Positions 24,994-34,714 of a stretch of DNA of 64,000 bases are shown here, piece by piece. Numbering within the stretch: the stretch's first letter is position 1; the number at the start of each line of letters is the position of its first letter. The DNA lies in the NCBI RefSeq assembly GCF_023555385.1, contig NZ_JAJSED010000001.1, positions 1,116,001-1,180,000 of the forward strand, written 5' to 3'. The position numbers and the translations under genes are program-made. This DNA is from Guyparkeria hydrothermalis (GTDB lineage Bacteria; Pseudomonadota; Gammaproteobacteria; Halothiobacillales; Halothiobacillaceae). The notes under the pieces are model-generated. The model saw only the letters and a program-made list of their open reading frames with translations, searched no databases and had not been told where the DNA came from.

Positions 24994-27153
24994 ATGGCAA
25001 CACTCGCAAGCCTGACGGTGGACATTGCCACCAATACGGCCAAGTTTTCCCGAGGTATCGAGAAGGTCGATCGACGCCTCAAACGATTCGACCGCGGCAT
25101 CGCCAAGGCACGACGCGCCGCACAGGGCCTGTTCGCGATTGCCGGCTCGGTCGGCGCGGCCAGCCTGGTCACGCGCTCCCTCGAGGCCGCAGACGCCGCC
25201 CACGACTACGCCAAGGCACTCGGCACGACCACCGAAGCCCTCACGTCCATGCAGTACGCGGCGGACAAGGTACAGGTGCCAGCCGAGAAGCTGCGGGACA
25301 TCCTGAAGGACACCAGCGAGAAGATCGGGGACGCCTACGCCACAGGGGGCGGCGAGGCCGTGGACGCACTAGACGCCCTCGGGCTGTCTGCCGAGCAGCT
25401 GGTCAAACTGTCACCCGACAAGCAATTGCTCGCCATCGCCGACCAACTGGATAACGTCGGCACCCAGGCCGAGAAGATCCAGATCATGGAATCGCTGGGC
25501 AACGATGCGTCCCTACTGCTGCCCCTGCTCGACGACAACGCCAGGGCCATGCGCAGATTCATGCAAGAGGCTGTCGACACCGGTCGGGCGCTCGACGACG
25601 ATCTAGCGGACAAGGCATCCAAGGCCAATGAGCAGCTGAAGAACATTCGCAGCCAGATAAGCGCGGATTTCACCAATCGTGTGGCAGAGAACGCCGAACA
25701 GATCACCCGACTGGCCGAGGCGCTTGGCGACGTAGCCGAGGGCGCAATGTGGGCCGCCGACAAGTTCGCGAGCTTTTCCGAATCCCTCGGCGAGGGTGCG
25801 GCAAAGATCGTCCATGGATCGGCCGACGCCACCGAGCGGCTACGCGAGCAGATCAAGCGCCTGCATGACGTACAGAATGACCCAACGCCCATCAGCAAGA
25901 TGCTGCTGTCTGACGCAGACGCGGCGCTTATCAAGCGCGCCGGCGGTGTGCAGGAAGCGATCGACATGCAGACAAAGGCGCTCGACTCACTACGCGAAGC
26001 GGAAAGGCGGATTGCGCAGCAGCGTAAGGCGATGCAGGGACTGCCGTCGTCCCCGCTCGCCGCGATTGCCTCTGGCAGTGCCGACACGATGAGCCGCACC
26101 AAGGAACAGGCCAAGCAGATTGCACGACTAATCGACCGTTACAAGGAGATGGGTGCAACCGCTGGCATGAGTGCAGTCGAGATTGCCCGTTACAGGTTGG
26201 AGCAAGCCGGAGCGACCGAATCCGAGATCAAGGGTGCACTCGCGTCCGTTCGCCACGCGGAGGCTATCGAGGCCCACCAGAAGGCTGTCGAGAAGCAACG
26301 CGAAAAAATGGAACGTGCCGCCGAGGATGCGCGGATCTATGGCGAAGCGCTGGATGACGCAGCAAAGGCCGTTCTCGACGGCCTCGACCCGATGCGCGTT
26401 CTCAAGCGCGAGCTAGAGGAACTCGACGAGCTGTTCGTCAGGGGACGACTCAGCATCAATCAATGGGCAGAGGCCACTCGCAAGAAGAGCAATGAAGCCC
26501 TGATGAATGGCTTTGCCGAGGATCTCCGCAAGCTGGAGGCAGCGTCAGAGGATTCGGCCGATTCGATGTCCGTGTTCTGGGAACAGGCCGCTCGCAACAT
26601 GCAGGACAGCATGTCGACGTTCTTCTTCGACGTCATGCAGGGCGACTTCGACAACATGGCAGATGGCTTCAAGCGGACCATCGACAAGATGGTTTCCGAC
26701 TTGATGGCGTCGCAGCTTCTCGACTACCTGGGCAAGGGTAACGCCAGTTCTGGCGGCTCGTGGCTTGAGGGTCTCGTCGGCAATCTTGCGGGGGGAATTT
26801 TCGGCAGCGGCGGCGGGACTAGCTGGGCGTCGTCCGGGGCGCAGGTGGTGACCGGCGAGATAAACACAGGCAATGGCTTCGCCAACTTCTCTTCCATCTT
26901 CGGCGGCGGTCGCGCCATCGGTGGCCCGGTCAGCGCCGGCACGCCTTACATGGTCGGCGAGCATGGTCCGGAGCTGTTCGTCCCTGACTCGAGCGGCACG
27001 GTTCGCTCGGCGCAGAACAGCGGTCAGGGTATGAACGTGGTCAATCACTTCAGCATCACGACACCGGACGCCAGGGGCATGCGAGCGGCCGAGGAACGGA
27101 TCGCGGCCAGGGTCGGCGATTCGATCATGCGGGCGCAACGGCGAAACCGATGA
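24994..27153 (+). CDS. Phage tail tape-measure-like protein
   Basis: 719 residues. The N-terminus LTVDIATNTAKFSRGIEKVDRRLKRFDRGIAKAR (in part) is the coiled-coil start of tape-measure proteins, followed by hydrophobic LFAIAGSVGAASLVTRS. Long helical, Ala/Lys/Glu-rich stretches run through residues 150-520. The C-terminus has the family hallmark GGPVSAGTPYMVGEHGPELFVPDSSG near 645. In siphophages it sets tail length and is ejected with DNA. No tail tube, chaperone or baseplate genes accompany it, so its presence in a tail-less element is odd; it may alter a helper's tail or be a leftover. Spacing to the capsid gene suggests one transcript. Confidence 0.85.
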   Translation: MATLASLTVDIATNTAKFSRGIEKVDRRLKRFDRGIAKARRAAQGLFAIAGSVGAASLVTRSLEAADAAHDYAKALGTTTEALTSMQYAADKVQVPAEKLRDILKDTSEKIGDAYATGGGEAVDALDALGLSAEQLVKLSPDKQLLAIADQLDNVGTQAEKIQIMESLGNDASLLLPLLDDNARAMRRFMQEAVDTGRALDDDLADKASKANEQLKNIRSQISADFTNRVAENAEQITRLAEALGDVAEGAMWAADKFASFSESLGEGAAKIVHGSADATERLREQIKRLHDVQNDPTPISKMLLSDADAALIKRAGGVQEAIDMQTKALDSLREAERRIAQQRKAMQGLPSSPLAAIASGSADTMSRTKEQAKQIARLIDRYKEMGATAGMSAVEIARYRLEQAGATESEIKGALASVRHAEAIEAHQKAVEKQREKMERAAEDARIYGEALDDAAKAVLDGLDPMRVLKRELEELDELFVRGRLSINQWAEATRKKSNEALMNGFAEDLRKLEAASEDSADSMSVFWEQAARNMQDSMSTFFFDVMQGDFDNMADGFKRTIDKMVSDLMASQLLDYLGKGNASSGGSWLEGLVGNLAGGIFGSGGGTSWASSGAQVVTGEINTGNGFANFSSIFGGGRAIGGPVSAGTPYMVGEHGPELFVPDSSGTVRSAQNSGQGMNVVNHFSITTPDARGMRAAEERIAARVGDSIMRAQRRNR

Positions 27154-27783: not shown

Positions 27784-27798
27784 TGGCGGAGAGGCAGG
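27784..27798. repeat. attR core (15-bp direct repeat, tRNA-Ser 3' end)
   Basis: TGGCGGAGAGGCAGG, identical to 18178-18192; it keeps the tRNA complete, including the encoded CCA. Confidence 0.85.
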
Positions 27799-27874
27799 GA
27801 TTCGAACCCTGGGACCCCGCGAGGGGGTCAACGGTTTTCGAGACCGCCCCGTTCGACCGCTCCGGCACCTCTCC
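27784..27874 (-). tRNA. tRNA-Ser(CGA)
   Basis: 91 nt with encoded CCA. Acceptor stem GGAGAGG/CCTCTCC; anticodon loop CTCGAAA gives CGA, which reads UCG; a long variable arm (ACCCCCTCGCGGGGT) is typical of serine tRNA; T-loop GGTTCGAATCC. Its 3' end is the integration site of the 9.6-kb element. Confidence 0.97.
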
Positions 27875-27912
27875 AAACGGGGACGACATGGTGAACCATG
27901 TCGACATGAAAC

Positions 27913-28003
27913 TGGCGGAGAGAGAGGGATTCGAACCCTCGGTACGGGGTTACCGTACACACGCTTTCCAGGCGTGCTCCTTCGACCGCTCGGACATCTC
28001 TCC
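27913..28003 (-). tRNA. tRNA-Ser(GGA)
   Basis: 91 nt with encoded CCA. Acceptor GGAGAGA/TCTCTCC; anticodon loop CTGGAAA gives GGA, reading UCC/UCU; long variable arm. It lies 38 bases upstream of tRNA-Ser(CGA) on the same strand, so they form one transcript. Confidence 0.97.
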
Positions 28004-28243: not shown

Positions 28244-29614
28244 TCAGCGTCCCGGTTCGAGGACAACCATCGACTCGATATGAGCCGTGTGCGGGAACAT
28301 GTCCATCACACCGGCGGCCACCAGCCGCCAGCCGTGCTCGTGCACCAGGTGGCCAACATCACGGGCCAGCGATCCCGGGTGGCAGGAGACGTAGACCACC
28401 CGACGCGGCTTCATGCGCGCGATGACCGGCATCATCGCCTCGGCGCCGGCGCGCGGTGGATCAAGCAGGACGCGGTCGTACGATTCACGCATCCAGCCAA
28501 GCGCGGCGTCCGGCTCGAACAGGTTTCCCACCACATGACGAGTGTTGTCGATGCCGTTGGAGGCGGCCCACTCCGCCCCGCGGGCCACCATGGCCTCGTC
28601 GACTTCCACCGCCGTTACCTGGCCTGCCGGGCCGGCGCGGCGCGCCAGCGGCAGGCTGAAGTTGCCCAGCCCGGCAAACAGATCGAGCACGCGATCACCC
28701 GGACCCACCTCGAGCCAGTCGAGCGCCTGGCGCACCATGCGCCGATTGATCTCGGCGTTGACCTGGGCGAAGTCCAGTGGCGAGAAGCGGATCTCGACGT
28801 CGAAGTCGTCGAGACGGTAGCTCGGGTAGACATCGCGTTCACCCTCCACCAGCGGCACCAGTGTTTCGGGCCCACCGGGTTGCAGGAAGATGGCGAAGCC
28901 GTGTTCGTCGGCAAACGCATCCAGGCGCGCGCGGTCGGCCGCGTCCAGCGGCACCATGTGACGGAACGCCAGCGCGCAGTGTTCATCGCCGCAGCCAACC
29001 TCGATCTGAGGAATGTCGCGACATGCCTTCAGGCCGGCAATCATTTCCGATATCGCCGGCAGTTTCTCACCCACCCGCGGGTCGAGTACCGGGCAGGTAT
29101 CGATATCGGCGATCATCGGACTGCCCGGCTCGCGGAAACCGACCAGCACGCGGCCTTTCTTGCGCACGTAGCGCACCCCAAGACGGGCCATGCGCCGGTA
29201 GCCCCAGATCGGGCCTGTCAGCGGTTCGAGCAGCTGCTCGGGCTCGATCCGACCGATGCGCGAAAGCTGGTCGAGCAGCGCTTGCTGCTTGTGGGCCACC
29301 TGCGCCTCGGGATCCAGATGCTGCATGGCGCAGCCACCACAGAGATGGAAATGCGGGCAACCCGGCTCGATCCGCTCGGGGCTGGCCCGCTCGACGGCCA
29401 CGGCATCGCCGAGGTCGAAATGACGACGCTGGTCGCGATAGACGAAACGCACGTCCTCACCCGGCAACGCCCGGCCGATGAAGGTGGCCTTGCCACCGAC
29501 GTGGGCCACGCCACGTCCCTCGAGGGTCAGTGATTCGACGTGCGCGGGAAACTCGCCCCGCGGGAGCGCCTTCTTTTTCTTGATGCGCTTATTGCTGTGC
29601 GTTTTTCGGGCCAT
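28244..29614 (-). CDS. rlmD: 23S rRNA (uracil-1939-C5)-methyltransferase
   Basis: SAM-dependent methyltransferase of the TrmA/RumA group that modifies U1939 of 23S rRNA. An N-terminal TRAM domain (about 15-70) is followed by the iron-sulfur motif CPHFHLCGGC with a fourth Cys in DTCPVL; DLFAGLGNFSLPLAR is the SAM site and VSCHPGSLARD holds the catalytic Cys. I start at MARKTHSNKRIKKKK, a basic RNA-binding tail; the longer frame upstream has no similarity. Length 456. Its neighbourhood with cysM and a BarA-type gene is conserved in gammaproteobacteria. Confidence 0.96.
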   Translation of the reverse strand: MARKTHSNKRIKKKKALPRGEFPAHVESLTLEGRGVAHVGGKATFIGRALPGEDVRFVYRDQRRHFDLGDAVAVERASPERIEPGCPHFHLCGGCAMQHLDPEAQVAHKQQALLDQLSRIGRIEPEQLLEPLTGPIWGYRRMARLGVRYVRKKGRVLVGFREPGSPMIADIDTCPVLDPRVGEKLPAISEMIAGLKACRDIPQIEVGCGDEHCALAFRHMVPLDAADRARLDAFADEHGFAIFLQPGGPETLVPLVEGERDVYPSYRLDDFDVEIRFSPLDFAQVNAEINRRMVRQALDWLEVGPGDRVLDLFAGLGNFSLPLARRAGPAGQVTAVEVDEAMVARGAEWAASNGIDNTRHVVGNLFEPDAALGWMRESYDRVLLDPPRAGAEAMMPVIARMKPRRVVYVSCHPGSLARDVGHLVHEHGWRLVAAGVMDMFPHTAHIESMVVLEPGR

Positions 29615-29708
29615 GATTTCCGGGCGATGAATAGCGTGTTCAAACGGCAAACGACCCCACAGCGCGGCACGCTGCAGGGCCGTATCGGGTGCAATGAACG
29701 AACGGTGA

Positions 29709-30611
29709 TCAGCCGGCCGGGAATACCCCGGTGGACAGGTAGCGATCACCGCGATCGCAGATGATGGTGACGATCACGGCATTTTCCACCTCGGCGGACA
29801 CTTTGAGGGCGGCGGCCATCGCCCCGCCCGAGGAAATGCCGGCAAGGACGCCCTCTTCACGGGCGAGCCGACGGGTCATGTCCTCGGCCTCGTCCTGCGA
29901 GATATCGAGCGTTCGATCGACGCGAGCGGGCTCGAAGATCGACGGCAGGTATTCCTTCGGCCAGCGGCGGATGCCCGGGATCTGCGCGCCCTCGCCCGGC
30001 TGCACACCGACGATCTGCACGTCCGGGTTCTGCTCCTTGAGGTAGTGCGAGGTGCCCATGATCGTGCCGGTGGTGCCCATCGCGGAGACGAAGTGCGTCA
30101 CCCGCCCCTCGGTCGCCTGCCAGATCTCCGGGCCCGTCGTCTGGTAGTGGGCACGCGGGTTGTCCGGGTTCGCGAACTGATCGAGCACCACACCTTCGCC
30201 TCGGGCGGCCATGGCCGCGGCGAGATCCCGCGCACCCTCCATGCCCTCTTCCCGCGATACCAGCTTGAGCTCCGCCCCGTAGGCGGCCATCGACTGGCGC
30301 CGCTCGACCGACATGTGCTCGGGCATGATCAGCGTCAGACGCAGACCCAGCGTGGCTGCGACCATGGCCAGCGCAATGCCGGTATTGCCCGAGGTGGCTT
30401 CCACGAGACGGTCACCCGGCTTGAGATCGCCTCGCTCGATCGCGCGCGTAATCATCGAGTGAGCCGCCCGATCCTTGACCGAACCGGCCGGGTTGTTGCC
30501 CTCGAGCTTGCCGAGAATCACGTTGCCGCGCTCGGCACCAACGGGGTCGAGCCGCTGGATGCGCACCAGCGGGGTGTTACCGATCAATTGATCAAGACGG
30601 TGACCTAACAT
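29709..30611 (-). CDS. cysM: Cysteine synthase B
   Basis: PLP enzyme making cysteine from O-acetylserine and sulfide or thiosulfate. MLGHRLDQLIGNTPLVRIQRL begins the family pattern; the PLP lysine is in NPAGSVKDRAA near residue 41; EATSGNTGIALAM and GISSGGAMAA are the phosphate and PLP-binding loops. The 300-residue length fits CysM rather than CysK (about 320). The frame is open far upstream, but the ATG at 30611 gives the conserved N-terminus. It is divergent from the kinase gene, with only 69 bases between. Confidence 0.95.
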   Translation of the reverse strand: MLGHRLDQLIGNTPLVRIQRLDPVGAERGNVILGKLEGNNPAGSVKDRAAHSMITRAIERGDLKPGDRLVEATSGNTGIALAMVAATLGLRLTLIMPEHMSVERRQSMAAYGAELKLVSREEGMEGARDLAAAMAARGEGVVLDQFANPDNPRAHYQTTGPEIWQATEGRVTHFVSAMGTTGTIMGTSHYLKEQNPDVQIVGVQPGEGAQIPGIRRWPKEYLPSIFEPARVDRTLDISQDEAEDMTRRLAREEGVLAGISSGGAMAAALKVSAEVENAVIVTIICDRGDRYLSTGVFPAG

Positions 30612-30680: not shown

Positions 30681-32951
30681 ATGCCACAAAGGGCCTCGGT
30701 GAACGCTTCGACACGTAGACAACAGGCCGCCGACCATGGGGGCCACGCCGGCCGGCTTCCGGTCGTTGCGGTGGCACTTGCGGCGCTGGCCGCCCCGCCG
30801 ATACTGCTTGCCATCGACGCCCTGCTCGCGGGTCGCCCGATCCTGTCCCCGGCCTTCCTCACTTCCATCGCCGGGTGGGCGGCGGCCTGGCTGGCCGGCA
30901 TGGCCTGGTGGATGAGCCGCCGCCGGCGACAGCCACGGCCAAGCGCGGACGAGACAGCGCCGTCTACGCCGGCCAGCAGCCCCGAACCGCCGAGCAGTCA
31001 CCTCTCGCCGGCATCAGTACTCGAACTGGTCAATCAGCAATGGGTCACGCCGCTGGGACACATCCGCTCGGCGGTCGACAAGCTGGCCACCATGGAACGC
31101 CGACTGTCCCGCTGCGCGCCCGCCACCGCCGACGGCGAGCCGGAACCGGCGCGATCGCTGCAACTGATGCGGCATGCCAGCCACCGACTGCGCATCTCGA
31201 TCGAGAACATCATCGACTACCACGAGATCACCGCCGGTCGGATGACCCGCACCGACAGCCGGGTGAACCTGCGCACCACCGGCGAAGACCTGGTAACCGA
31301 CTGGCAGACCACCGCCCAGCGCGACGGCCAGGTTCTGCAGTTCATCGGCTATCAGGACCTGCCGCGGGAAATCGTTTTCGACCCGCAGATGCTCCGCCGC
31401 CTTCTCGACCGGTTGCTCAACGAGGTGCTCTGCAACGCCCACCTGCGCGAGCCGGCGGTCACCCTGGAGCTCGAGGACGAGCAGGAGAATGACGGCGGCG
31501 ATCTCATCGGCCGGTTCCGCCTCACTGTCGACGGTCAACGGGCCGCACCCGACTCGCTTGCTGCCGAGCGTCTGGCCGCACGCCTCGACCAGAGCCTGCC
31601 GGAGTCGCTGGAAGGCCTGCTCGTCGACGACCTGATCGACATCTGGATCATCCGCTGCATCTCCAAGCACCTCGACTCGGCTCTGGAGGTCGTGACCACC
31701 GGGCCGGATCGATTCGGCTTCACCGCCACCTTCAGCGCCCCGATCCTCCTGGGCGAAGCCGACAGCGGCGACCGGCTGGCCGACCAGCTTTGTGGCGTGC
31801 TCTGTGCCTCACAGCAGCACCGGCGCGCGTGGCAGGGCAACCTCGCGGCGCTCGGAGCGGACCTCCAGCTGGAGCCGGACTTCGGGCAGCCGGTCGACCT
31901 GTTGTTCCTCGACGAGCGGGTGGTGGAGCGGAACCGGGACGACCCGGCGTTCAACCAGTGGATCTCGCTTGCCGGCCGGGTTATCGGTCTTTCCAGCCAC
32001 CTGACGATTCGCGGTCGCCCGAGTGCCCCGCTGCACTGGGCCGACTTCACGTTGCCGCTGTTCATCCGGGCCAGGGCGCTGTCCGCCTCGCTCGAACGGG
32101 TCCTTGTCGCCCCGGCACCGGGACCGCGCCGCAGCCCCTCCAGGCCCCCGGCCCGATCGGCGCCCCCGGCCTCGGCTACCACCCAGCCCAGCATCGAGCC
32201 CCGGCGAACGGCCAAACCCTCGCGACACGAGCTGTACTCGTTTGCCGGACGCACGGCCCTGGTGATCGACGACGACCCGGTCTACCTCGCACACCTGGGC
32301 CAGACCTTGGGCGAACTCGGCTTCCACGTGCTCTCGGCTACCAACGGCAAGCAGGCACTGGCACTGGCGGATCACGAGGACATCGACATCGTCTTCACCG
32401 ACATGCACATGCCGGACATCACCGGCGCCGGAGTGGCGCGCATCCTCAAGAAACGCCCGCGCCACCTGGAAACGCCGATCGTCGCGATCACCGCCAACCG
32501 GCAGGGCAACGTGCACCAGGACCTGCTGCATAGCGGCATCGAGCGCGTCCTGACCAAGCCGGTGACCGCCGGCGACCTGCTCAGCGCAATCGGCGAATTC
32601 TTCCCACTGCAGACGCACGGGCAGTCCGACACCCAGGCCAAGACGAACGCACGTGACGACAAGGGTCGCGACCCGTTTCTCATGCGTCTGCTCTGCGACG
32701 AACTGCCCGGCTATCGCCGCCTGCTGGCGCAACAGCCCGACGATCCCGACGCATTGCGTCACGCGGCCCACAAGCTGCGTGGAGCGGCCGCCTGCTGCCA
32801 GGAAACCGATTTGCAGACGCTGGCCGGAAAGCTGGAGGAAAGCCTCGATCGCTCGGCATCAGCGAGTGAAATACAGCCCCTGATCGACGCCCTGATCGAG
32901 CGGATCGATCAGATCAACGCCGCCCCCGCCTGTCGAACCAGCGAGTCGTGA
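30681..32951 (+). CDS. BarA/GacS-type hybrid sensor with degenerate kinase, receiver and HPt domains
   Basis: 756 residues. Two membrane helices (about 27-45 and 58-77) and a short linker lead to a HisKA-like helix pair in which the usual H-E-x-x-TP is QQWVTPL, so the phosphoacceptor His is gone. The ATPase region (about 220-355) lacks DxGxG and the GxGLGL box. Residues 370-475 look like a worn receiver. The receiver at 523-640 is intact (IDDDP, phosphoacceptor Asp in VFTDMHMPD, Lys in LTKP), as is the HPt at 667-730 (AAHKLRGAA). Position next to cysM-rlmD is that of gacS/barA in gammaproteobacteria. It probably relays or senses phosphate from another kinase. Confidence 0.82.
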   Translation: MPQRASVNASTRRQQAADHGGHAGRLPVVAVALAALAAPPILLAIDALLAGRPILSPAFLTSIAGWAAAWLAGMAWWMSRRRRQPRPSADETAPSTPASSPEPPSSHLSPASVLELVNQQWVTPLGHIRSAVDKLATMERRLSRCAPATADGEPEPARSLQLMRHASHRLRISIENIIDYHEITAGRMTRTDSRVNLRTTGEDLVTDWQTTAQRDGQVLQFIGYQDLPREIVFDPQMLRRLLDRLLNEVLCNAHLREPAVTLELEDEQENDGGDLIGRFRLTVDGQRAAPDSLAAERLAARLDQSLPESLEGLLVDDLIDIWIIRCISKHLDSALEVVTTGPDRFGFTATFSAPILLGEADSGDRLADQLCGVLCASQQHRRAWQGNLAALGADLQLEPDFGQPVDLLFLDERVVERNRDDPAFNQWISLAGRVIGLSSHLTIRGRPSAPLHWADFTLPLFIRARALSASLERVLVAPAPGPRRSPSRPPARSAPPASATTQPSIEPRRTAKPSRHELYSFAGRTALVIDDDPVYLAHLGQTLGELGFHVLSATNGKQALALADHEDIDIVFTDMHMPDITGAGVARILKKRPRHLETPIVAITANRQGNVHQDLLHSGIERVLTKPVTAGDLLSAIGEFFPLQTHGQSDTQAKTNARDDKGRDPFLMRLLCDELPGYRRLLAQQPDDPDALRHAAHKLRGAAACCQETDLQTLAGKLEESLDRSASASEIQPLIDALIERIDQINAAPACRTSES

Positions 32952-33091
32952 ACCGCCCTCATGACGCCGGTTGCCGACGGAGCCGGATTCAGGTTCACGA
33001 GATTCATTGCTAGGATCGGCCTATATTCATAACCGCACGTCGGTCTAGCGCCCATGGTTGGGCAAACGCATCCAGGGAAAGGTTGGACAAC

Positions 33092-34714
33092 ATGGAGTTC
33101 GACAGCAGTGTGCTGAATGGAGGAACAGATCAAGGCATGATCGTCTTCCTGTGCAACACCTCCGGGCGCGTGATCAGCGCCAGCCCACGGGCCGACGAGG
33201 TCTTCCCGCCCGAGAGCGACGAGACCCTGCGCGAGCGGCTCGAGGGCCGCTTGAGCCTCAACAACAGCCACTTGCTGATCAGCGCGTTGATCGACGGCGA
33301 GCCGATGTCGCTGCGCGGCCTGATGGACAACCGGGAAGTCACGCTCGGTGTCACGCCGCTCGACGAGTACCAGCGACTGGTCGTTCTCCTCGAAAGCCTG
33401 TGTGCCCCAGCCAGCCTCGACTCGCTCACCCGACTCCCCGACCGGAGCGTGATGCTCGAGCGCGTGCGCGAGATCCAGACCACGGGTGACGGCGGCCACC
33501 GGCTGCTGCTGGTCGACATCGACCGGCTCAAGACCGTCAACGACTACCTCGGCTACCACGTAGGCGACCGCGTGATCCGGGACCTGGCCCGCGCCATGCA
33601 GTTGATGGTTCCCGAAGACGTGATGATCTCGCGCTGGAGCGGCCATGAATTCATGCTGCTGATCCCACCGAGGCAGGCCGAACGCACACCTCAGATCGCC
33701 GAGAACATTCGTAAGGCGGCTGCCGGCATCCACTTTGCACCCGACGATGACGCGCCGCACCTGGGCACTGTCACCGTCAGCATCGGCCATGGCTCCCTCG
33801 GCCCCGGCGAGACCAGCCGAATCCAGCCTCGGGACCAGCTCAGCGCCGTCAATGCCGCGGTCTACGAGGCCAAGCGCACCGGCCGCGACCGGGTGGTCGA
33901 CGCCGATCACCTGCGGCAACCCTCCGTCTACACCACCGGGGGCGCACTCGACCGGGCCATCCACGAAGGTCGCATCGTCGCGGCCACCCAGCCGATCGTC
34001 GACCTCAAGACCGGTGAGGTCGTGGCCGACGAGACCCTCGCCCGCATGATCACCCCCGAAGGCGAGGTGATTCCGGCCGGACTGTTCATCGAGGCGGCCT
34101 CGCGCCTGCAGATGGCGCACCGGATCGATTTCGAGATCATCAACCAGACGATCCACAACTGCGTCACATCGCTCACCCACCAGCCGATGGCGCATTTCGT
34201 CAATATCTCCGGCGATTTCCTCCAGCACCCAGAGCTGATGGAAAAGATCATCACCAACGCGCGTCAGGCCTGTGCCGGTTTGGGCGGCGAACGGGAGGTC
34301 AAGCCGCTGGTGCTGGAAATGACTGAGCGCGAGGTACTGGACGACACGGCCGACGCCTACAGCGCGCTCAAGCCGCTGATCGACTTCGGGCTGCGCCTGG
34401 CCCTGGACGACTTCGGCAGCGGCTATTCCTCCTACCGCTACCTGCTGGACATGCCCTTCACCTTCCTCAAGATCGAAGGCGCCCTGGTACAGAACATGAG
34501 CCAAAGCCAGCGGGCACAGAAGATCGTCCGCCACATCCAGGCAATGGCCAGCGACATGGGTCTGATCACGGTCGCAGAATTCATCGGCGACCAGCACACG
34601 GCCGACCTGCTGCGCGACATGGGAATCGACTGGGGCCAGGGCTTCCACTTCGGCCACCCGGAGATCGTGCACCCGGAGCACGCGAACGCCCGGCACATCG
34701 TCCACGAGATCTGA
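33092..34714 (+). CDS. GGDEF/EAL protein, probable c-di-GMP phosphodiesterase
   Basis: 540 residues, cytoplasmic. Residues 1-100 may be a PAS-like input domain; 120-275 are a GGDEF fold whose signature is WSGHEF, so cyclase activity is unlikely; 295-535 are an EAL domain with ETL for EAL, conserved NISG, LEMTE, the metal-binding DDFGSGYSS, FLKIEG, VAEF and QGFHFG, so hydrolysis of c-di-GMP is plausible. I take the ATG nine bases after AGGGAAAGG; a TTG three codons earlier is the alternative. It follows the BarA-type gene by 140 bases and may be regulated with it. Confidence 0.87.
   Translation: MEFDSSVLNGGTDQGMIVFLCNTSGRVISASPRADEVFPPESDETLRERLEGRLSLNNSHLLISALIDGEPMSLRGLMDNREVTLGVTPLDEYQRLVVLLESLCAPASLDSLTRLPDRSVMLERVREIQTTGDGGHRLLLVDIDRLKTVNDYLGYHVGDRVIRDLARAMQLMVPEDVMISRWSGHEFMLLIPPRQAERTPQIAENIRKAAAGIHFAPDDDAPHLGTVTVSIGHGSLGPGETSRIQPRDQLSAVNAAVYEAKRTGRDRVVDADHLRQPSVYTTGGALDRAIHEGRIVAATQPIVDLKTGEVVADETLARMITPEGEVIPAGLFIEAASRLQMAHRIDFEIINQTIHNCVTSLTHQPMAHFVNISGDFLQHPELMEKIITNARQACAGLGGEREVKPLVLEMTEREVLDDTADAYSALKPLIDFGLRLALDDFGSGYSSYRYLLDMPFTFLKIEGALVQNMSQSQRAQKIVRHIQAMASDMGLITVAEFIGDQHTADLLRDMGIDWGQGFHFGHPEIVHPEHANARHIVHEI

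Follow-up and report, generated by a model that had tools for sequence, protein, structure and literature searches.

GacS/BarA is the standard input to the Gac-Rsm/Csr global switch of gammaproteobacteria. Among comparable proteins, RcsD has a kinase-like but degenerate body. Here we describe pGacS, an orthologue of GacS/BarA, 756 aa long, whose kinase appears dead and which is encoded in the window, that is, the whole stretch of 64,000 nucleotides of Guyparkeria hydrothermalis DNA that was analysed. Two described systems provide close comparisons. The ArcB signal is reported to decay by the route Asp54-His717-Asp576-Pi, via HPt and receiver only (PMC11620690), and RcsD is described as a membrane phosphotransfer protein with an HPt domain in a relay (PMC12189002, PMC12471899). 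A kinase-dead GacS was not found described in the titles and abstract openings of a literature that largely excludes subscription papers. In the Guyparkeria pangenome paper, a text search gave no mention of GacA, CsrA or histidine kinase. We propose that pGacS is likely a kinase-dead GacS that has been kept as a receiver–HPt phosphotransfer module for GacA.

The pGacS locus and its domains

The gene is divergent from cysM and rlmD in the window. The locus and the domains of pGacS are arranged as follows.

28244..29749, minus strand: rlmD (ORF and neighbour comparison)
29709..30608, minus strand: cysM, divergent neighbour of pGacS (ORF and neighbour comparison)
30681..32951, plus strand: pGacS, kinase-dead GacS/BarA orthologue, 756 aa (ORF and orthologue comparison)
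30756..30926, plus strand: N-terminal membrane region (residues 26-82), modelled as a pair of helices joined by a short loop (model; second helix weak by hydropathy)
31005..31265, plus strand: degenerate DHp, residues 109-195, with pseudo-H-box NQQWVTPLGHIR, Q119 replacing the phosphoacceptor His (alignment)
31266..31766, plus strand: degenerate CA (ATP-binding) domain, residues 196-362 (alignment and model)
31767..32120, plus strand: pseudo-receiver, residues 363-480 approximately (alignment to the corresponding part of intact GacS; model)
32238..32606, plus strand: intact receiver, residues 520-642, D574 (Pfam, residue check and structure search)
32670..32930, plus strand: intact HPt, residues 664-750, H697 (Pfam and residue check)
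33083..34714, plus strand: GGDEF-EAL gene downstream of pGacS (16 of 16 named loci)

Sixteen of the 75 scanned loci (L053-L068) hold pGacS orthologues that extend over all or most of the protein. At all 16 named loci, cysM adjoins the orthologue and a GGDEF-EAL gene flanks it; rlmD lies nearby at eight, all Guyparkeria-type, within the flanking DNA examined. A functional tie of the GGDEF-EAL gene to pGacS would be a guess. By eye, the GGDEF motif of the 33083-34714 gene reads SGHEF, and its product may therefore be a phosphodiesterase. Upstream in the window, positions 24994-27153 encode a phage tail tape-measure protein (phrog_2854, E 7.6e-57), which is prophage material, and two tRNA-Ser genes lie near it at 27784-28003.

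The receiver and HPt domains were originally described as intact, and the orthologues bear this out. The receiver residues D530, D531, D574, T604 and K626 and the HPt residues H697, K698 and G701 are each invariant in 20 of 20 orthologues, and the receiver is the domain richest in invariant residues (54 of 123). Pfam matches Response_reg (82 bits) and Hpt (37 bits) in the window pGacS, with no match to HisKA or HATPase_c even at E 10. In two Halothiobacillus orthologues, HATPase_c is found below the cut-off (E 0.015 and 0.094), i.e. as a remnant. The best NCBIfam model for pGacS is BarA, which scores 100.4 bits against a cut-off of 890, most strongly in the receiver–HPt part; this cut-off is passed in just one of 57 genomes, and in most relatives the intact kinases also fall below it.

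The loss of the catalytic residues was examined by profile–profile alignment (hhalign) of pGacS residues 105-480 from 20 orthologues with nine intact hybrid kinases. The alignment, run without a negative control, covers DHp, CA and pseudo-receiver with a global E of 9e-22 and a local E of 1.5e-14. In it, Q119 falls at the position of the phosphoacceptor His, and Q120 at that of the Glu that follows. Position 119 is Gln in all 20 full-length orthologues (10 Guyparkeria, 10 Halothiobacillus), and the replacement of the phosphoacceptor His, claimed from the window protein, thus extends to both genera. The residue after Q119 is Q in 10, H in nine and N in one, and the position of the catalytic N-box Asn (248) is occupied by E in 10, I in six, V in three and Q in one. 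The ATP-binding G-boxes had also been reported absent. Consistent with this claim and with the unmatched HATPase_c of the window protein, neither of the two G1 glycine positions holds Gly in any of the 20 orthologues, and no GLGL-type G2 box could be seen by eye in them; the G1 Asp is retained in all 20.

The pseudo-H-box itself (NQxW[VI]TPLGHIR) is nearly invariant among pGacS orthologues. An invariant His, H127, sits eight residues past the lost phosphoacceptor His. We considered H127 as a relocated phosphoacceptor and rejected it: the residue is invariant, but the ATP site is gone. A conserved His elsewhere, which could have spoken for an active kinase, is thus present, but ATP-binding residues are restored nowhere.

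Two features go beyond the original prediction. The pseudo-receiver is present at about residues 363-480, and the large periplasmic region has been lost, the model containing helices at 26-50 and 57-82 with a short loop between them. Helix 26-50 passes a simple hydropathy cut, and helix 57-82 does not. Pfam found no HAMP domain in pGacS, and none in the intact GacS of the related genome G011 either; HAMP loss is therefore not specific to pGacS.

AlphaFold, with 16 sequences as input, gave a moderate model of the whole protein (mean pLDDT 68) and a better one of DHp-CA (mean pLDDT 79), in which the pseudo-H-box part falls below 50. DHp-CA was modelled alone because receivers filled the VIA-align list of the whole model. 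In the VIA-align search with the DHp-CA model, the P. aeruginosa GacS kinase came first (7z8n, Z 19.0, 216 aligned, rmsd 5.0), followed by DivL (4q20, Z 17.9), ShkA (16.9), ETR1 (16.4) and RetS (16.2). Foldseek with the whole model returned ShkA (6qrj) as best match, then GacS and RetS. As modelled, the kinase fold is retained in pGacS without the catalytic residues.

The resemblance of this domain to DivL and RetS, together with the strongly conserved pseudo-H-box and DHp, would suit a role other than phosphotransfer, in which pGacS acts as a DivL- or RetS-like pseudokinase through protein contacts of its dead DHp-CA. Such contacts alone do not explain the invariant receiver and HPt residues, and we consider this role quite unlikely.

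Distribution, descent and selection

Relatives were searched for pGacS in 57 genomes, the window's genome being G000. A full-length orthologue is found in 10 of 11 Guyparkeria and 10 of 10 Halothiobacillus (genus g4) genomes, while the other 36 relatives' genomes give partial matches or none. The single Guyparkeria miss, G004, is a genome 64% complete. In genus g3 of the same family (G012, G014, G016, G018, G020), none of the five genomes has a pGacS orthologue, and none has GacA at E<=1e-35; the Gac system was apparently lost there.

An intact GacS of 889 aa (AHLSHEIRTPMN) is encoded in G011, the sole genome of the sister genus g2, with HisKA, HATPase_c, receiver and HPt all matched by Pfam. 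Like pGacS, it is divergent from cysM-rlmD, in agreement with the gacS/barA position originally assigned to the gene. We scanned 89 further loci for cysM and rlmD, most of which had too little flank or were not GacS; an intact kinase divergent from cysM was seen at L130 and L131, from two other families. In a receiver–HPt tree of 30 rows, pGacS joins the G011 GacS with support of 97/87 and with long-branch warnings that include the G011 GacS. By locus and tree, pGacS is a direct descendant of GacS/BarA. The distribution of orthologues, taken with the tree, points to a single loss of the kinase, probably before Guyparkeria and Halothiobacillus diverged.

Selection was estimated as dN/dS in six orthologue pairs. 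The values are 0-0.059 for the receiver, 0.014-0.104 for DHp, 0.020-0.090 for the pseudo-receiver, 0.047-0.170 for CA, 0.047-0.163 for HPt and 0.25-0.61 for the N-terminal membrane part. The fast evolution of this last region, the loss of the catalytic and sensor parts and a stop after the usual ATG in one MAG (G010/L059) could suggest that pGacS is a decaying gacS pseudogene. Against this, the frame stays open over a long stretch in 20 genomes from two genera, dN/dS is low in the folded domains and the neighbours are conserved. Moreover, the MAG has, after the stop, a GTG common to Guyparkeria genes. With dN/dS and conservation both disfavouring it, we regard decay as very improbable. The comparisons indicate that pGacS is under purifying selection and not a pseudogene, so that an objection foreseen for the original prediction falls away.

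In the MAG, the stop follows the usual ATG at L059 2974-2979; the GTG shared with Guyparkeria genes comes directly behind this stop, and translation may in fact begin at that GTG. For the MAG's pGacS (L059/L030), the frame used in alignment A1 begins with the codon that follows the stop; the sequence was left out of A2 and A3.

GacA and the source and direction of phosphate flow

The window's genome encodes a single regulator of the UvrY/GacA type, which scores 189 bits against the UvrY model (cut-off 280) and is directly followed by uvrC. The order uvrY-uvrC is the usual one. At E<=1e-35, GacA is found in 11 of 11 Guyparkeria (G004 at 61% identity), 10 of 10 Halothiobacillus and one of one g2 genomes, and in none of the five g3 genomes. 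The GacA alignment comprises 10 Halothiobacillus sequences and that of G011, and the GacA of the window's genome was read by eye. A GacA/UvrY-type partner had been expected, and it occurs in all 20 pGacS genomes, the window's included. Two genomes of the family have GacA without pGacS: G004, which is incomplete, and G011, which has the intact GacS. The observed link between pGacS and GacA is this co-occurrence; phosphotransfer between the two is proposed.

Further downstream in the pathway, CsrA is encoded in the window's genome. At G000:1886397, outside the window (G000:C1; L196 1501-1800 onward), there is a fully palindromic site, TGTAGGAAAATTCCTACA, that departs from the GacA consensus at two positions. 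By eye, it is followed by a GGA-rich region, a terminator-like hairpin and a T run. The region resembles a Csr/Rsm sRNA with a palindromic GacA-box-like site and is a candidate for one, the comparison being with the Csr/Rsm sRNAs under UvrY/GacA (PMC3171408). It is matched in 10 of 11 Guyparkeria genomes over about 400-440 bases (79-100% identity), the palindrome being identical in all 10. Six of 10 Halothiobacillus genomes give matches of 44-125 bases at the box end, and the GacA-box pattern is present at the match in two of these six loci.

GGA content and folding were compared with shuffled sequences at seven loci (five of the 10 Guyparkeria and two Halothiobacillus). Predicted hairpin loops carry 4-7 GGA against shuffle means of 0.8-1.5, a number that at most 1 in 200 shuffles reaches at all seven loci. 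The total GGA count is clearly above the shuffles at four loci and is reached by 7 to 11% of shuffles at the other three; at two loci, folding is about as stable in the shuffles as in the real sequence. Rfam gave no above-threshold match to the candidate; CsrB scored 15.6 bits against a gathering score of 71, and this sub-threshold match falls just downstream of the first terminator-like hairpin. A genome scan for GacA boxes (two mismatches or fewer) found five sites, compared with 20 in the reversed control. The pattern alone is not enriched, and the sRNA claim thus rests on the one conserved site, G000:1886397. A near-identical box, TGTAGGCAAATTCCTACA, was seen at a second place in G001 and G003, where L213 and L215 are the second matches; in L215, it precedes what looks by eye like a small exported helix-hairpin-helix (ComEA-like) protein.

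We propose that pGacS, with neither ATP autophosphorylation nor periplasmic sensing, would be kept as a membrane-bound receiver–HPt module for GacA. The dead DHp-CA-pseudo-receiver part would serve for dimerisation and is probably a regulatory body, although its strong conservation also permits a DivL-like role. Unless D574 is charged by some other donor, phosphate could move only among three sites, pGacS having no ATP input of its own: Asp54 of GacA, H697 of the HPt and D574 of the receiver. The contact with GacA, the direction of flow, the role of the dead domains and the source of phosphate are inferred. The remaining parts are those that ArcB uses against ArcA~P, and we therefore favour a regulated drain as the likeliest net action. 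GacA would be charged through crosstalk or by acetyl phosphate, and phosphate would pass from GacA~P to H697, then to D574 and finally to Pi. This reading, drawn by analogy with the reverse relay of ArcB, is tentative. The receiver is best conserved and so presumably takes part, as required by a drain or by a relay that runs via the receiver, but not by a LadS-type relay.

Three points weigh against the drain. It needs a source of GacA~P, yet the acetyl-phosphate enzymes are patchy; the BarA-model kinases present in 10 of 10 Halothiobacillus genomes could instead feed pGacS; and the dead DHp is conserved beyond the need of a mere drain remnant.

The opposite direction of flow corresponds to the rewiring originally predicted, in which phosphate reaches the receiver or HPt of pGacS in trans from another kinase and then moves to GacA. 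The intact receiver and HPt would allow this, and there is a precedent in P. aeruginosa, where LadS borrows the HPt of GacS (PMC4866733). To find a donor, the window's genome was searched for kinases. There are 14 HATPase matches, named by reading the sequences. Eight are HisKA kinases, the same eight that a HisKA search returned at E 0.1; the rest are a CheA, a protein of the ChpA/PilL type that carries HPt and receiver domains, and ATPases of the GyrB/ParE/MutL/HtpG type. In none of the eight kinases, of which L009 and L010 were read incompletely at the N-terminus, does a receiver follow the ATPase domain, and no second GacS was found among the HATPase and HisKA matches. By eye, a response regulator gene adjoins each of the eight, leaving no orphan; L008, considered as one, has an NtrC-type regulator beside it.

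The BarA model at E<=1e-60 gave the same outcome in the window's genus, with no match in the 11 Guyparkeria genomes (best 12 candidates scored per genome), whereas all 10 Halothiobacillus genomes are matched. A LadS-like donor is therefore possible in Halothiobacillus and has no candidate in Guyparkeria. A LadS-type route, moreover, would not need the pGacS receiver, the best conserved domain. We regard the forward relay as doubtful and the drain as rather more likely than a relay from another kinase. Much of the original prediction stands, namely descent from GacS/BarA, a dead kinase, an intact receiver and HPt and the presence of GacA. The feeding kinase, in contrast, is so far unsupported, and a second intact gacS, which would have offered another explanation, is absent from these searches.

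Acetyl phosphate was considered as another donor. It might charge the pGacS receiver, from which phosphate would reach GacA through the HPt, so that pGacS would bring a metabolic input to the pathway. The window's genome encodes acetate kinase and a Pta domain. Acetate kinase is found in 10 of 11 Guyparkeria and one of two Halothiobacillus genomes examined, and a Pta-type domain in four of five and one of six, respectively. Searches for the two found neither in G010 and G015, which weakens acetyl phosphate as a donor common to all carriers, and we consider this input improbable.

Returning to the drain, a ligand bound to the pseudo-receiver or the dead CA might gate it, c-di-GMP being one possibility. 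The guess of c-di-GMP stems from the GGDEF-EAL gene, which is always adjacent, and from the ShkA-like layout; we give such gating a low probability. If it is true, the default state of the Gac-Rsm switch would be the charged one, and regulated dephosphorylation would be its main control.

Comparison with known systems

The kinase site and the sensor are lost while the gene is under selection and the regulator is kept with it, so that something besides its own kinase must set the switch. With the kinase dead in 20 of 20 orthologues and the regulator and candidate sRNA persisting, autophosphorylation is set apart in this lineage from the other two roles of such kinases, phosphotransfer and phosphatase activity. 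Cultured sulfur-oxidising autotrophs are among the carriers, which makes the direction of flow accessible to simple gene deletions.

DivL is not known to have a receiver–HPt relay. This protein resembles pGacS in having a kinase fold without a normal kinase role, and it was second in the structure list (4q20), but it acts on CckA through protein contacts. The conserved pseudo-H-box is suggestive of a DivL-type binding of a regulator to the pGacS DHp. ShkA, the top Foldseek match of the whole model, shares the DHp-CA-pseudoREC-REC layout. It differs in being an active c-di-GMP-gated hybrid kinase, and binding of c-di-GMP by pGacS is a guess by analogy.

RcsD is similar by analogy, from descriptions rather than sequence. 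RcsD works with the kinase RcsC, and no RcsC-like hybrid kinase was found in the window's genome; in addition, pGacS keeps an intact receiver. In ArcB, the HPt and receiver are likewise the parts that dephosphorylate the regulator (PMC11620690). In contrast to pGacS, ArcB is also a kinase; pGacS retains the decay parts only, and its drain activity is proposed by analogy.

The closest likeness is to GacS/BarA itself: the locus beside cysM, the order DHp-CA-pseudoREC-REC-HPt, the kinase fold with 7z8n as first match and the encoded GacA/UvrY are shared. Conversely, pGacS is without the H-box His, the N-box Asn, the G-box glycines and the large periplasmic sensor. pGacS is therefore a GacS by descent and, by the features tested, not a GacS kinase. 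It belongs with the histidine pseudokinases and phosphotransfer proteins, having a kinase fold without catalytic residues that is under selection and accompanied by an HPt.
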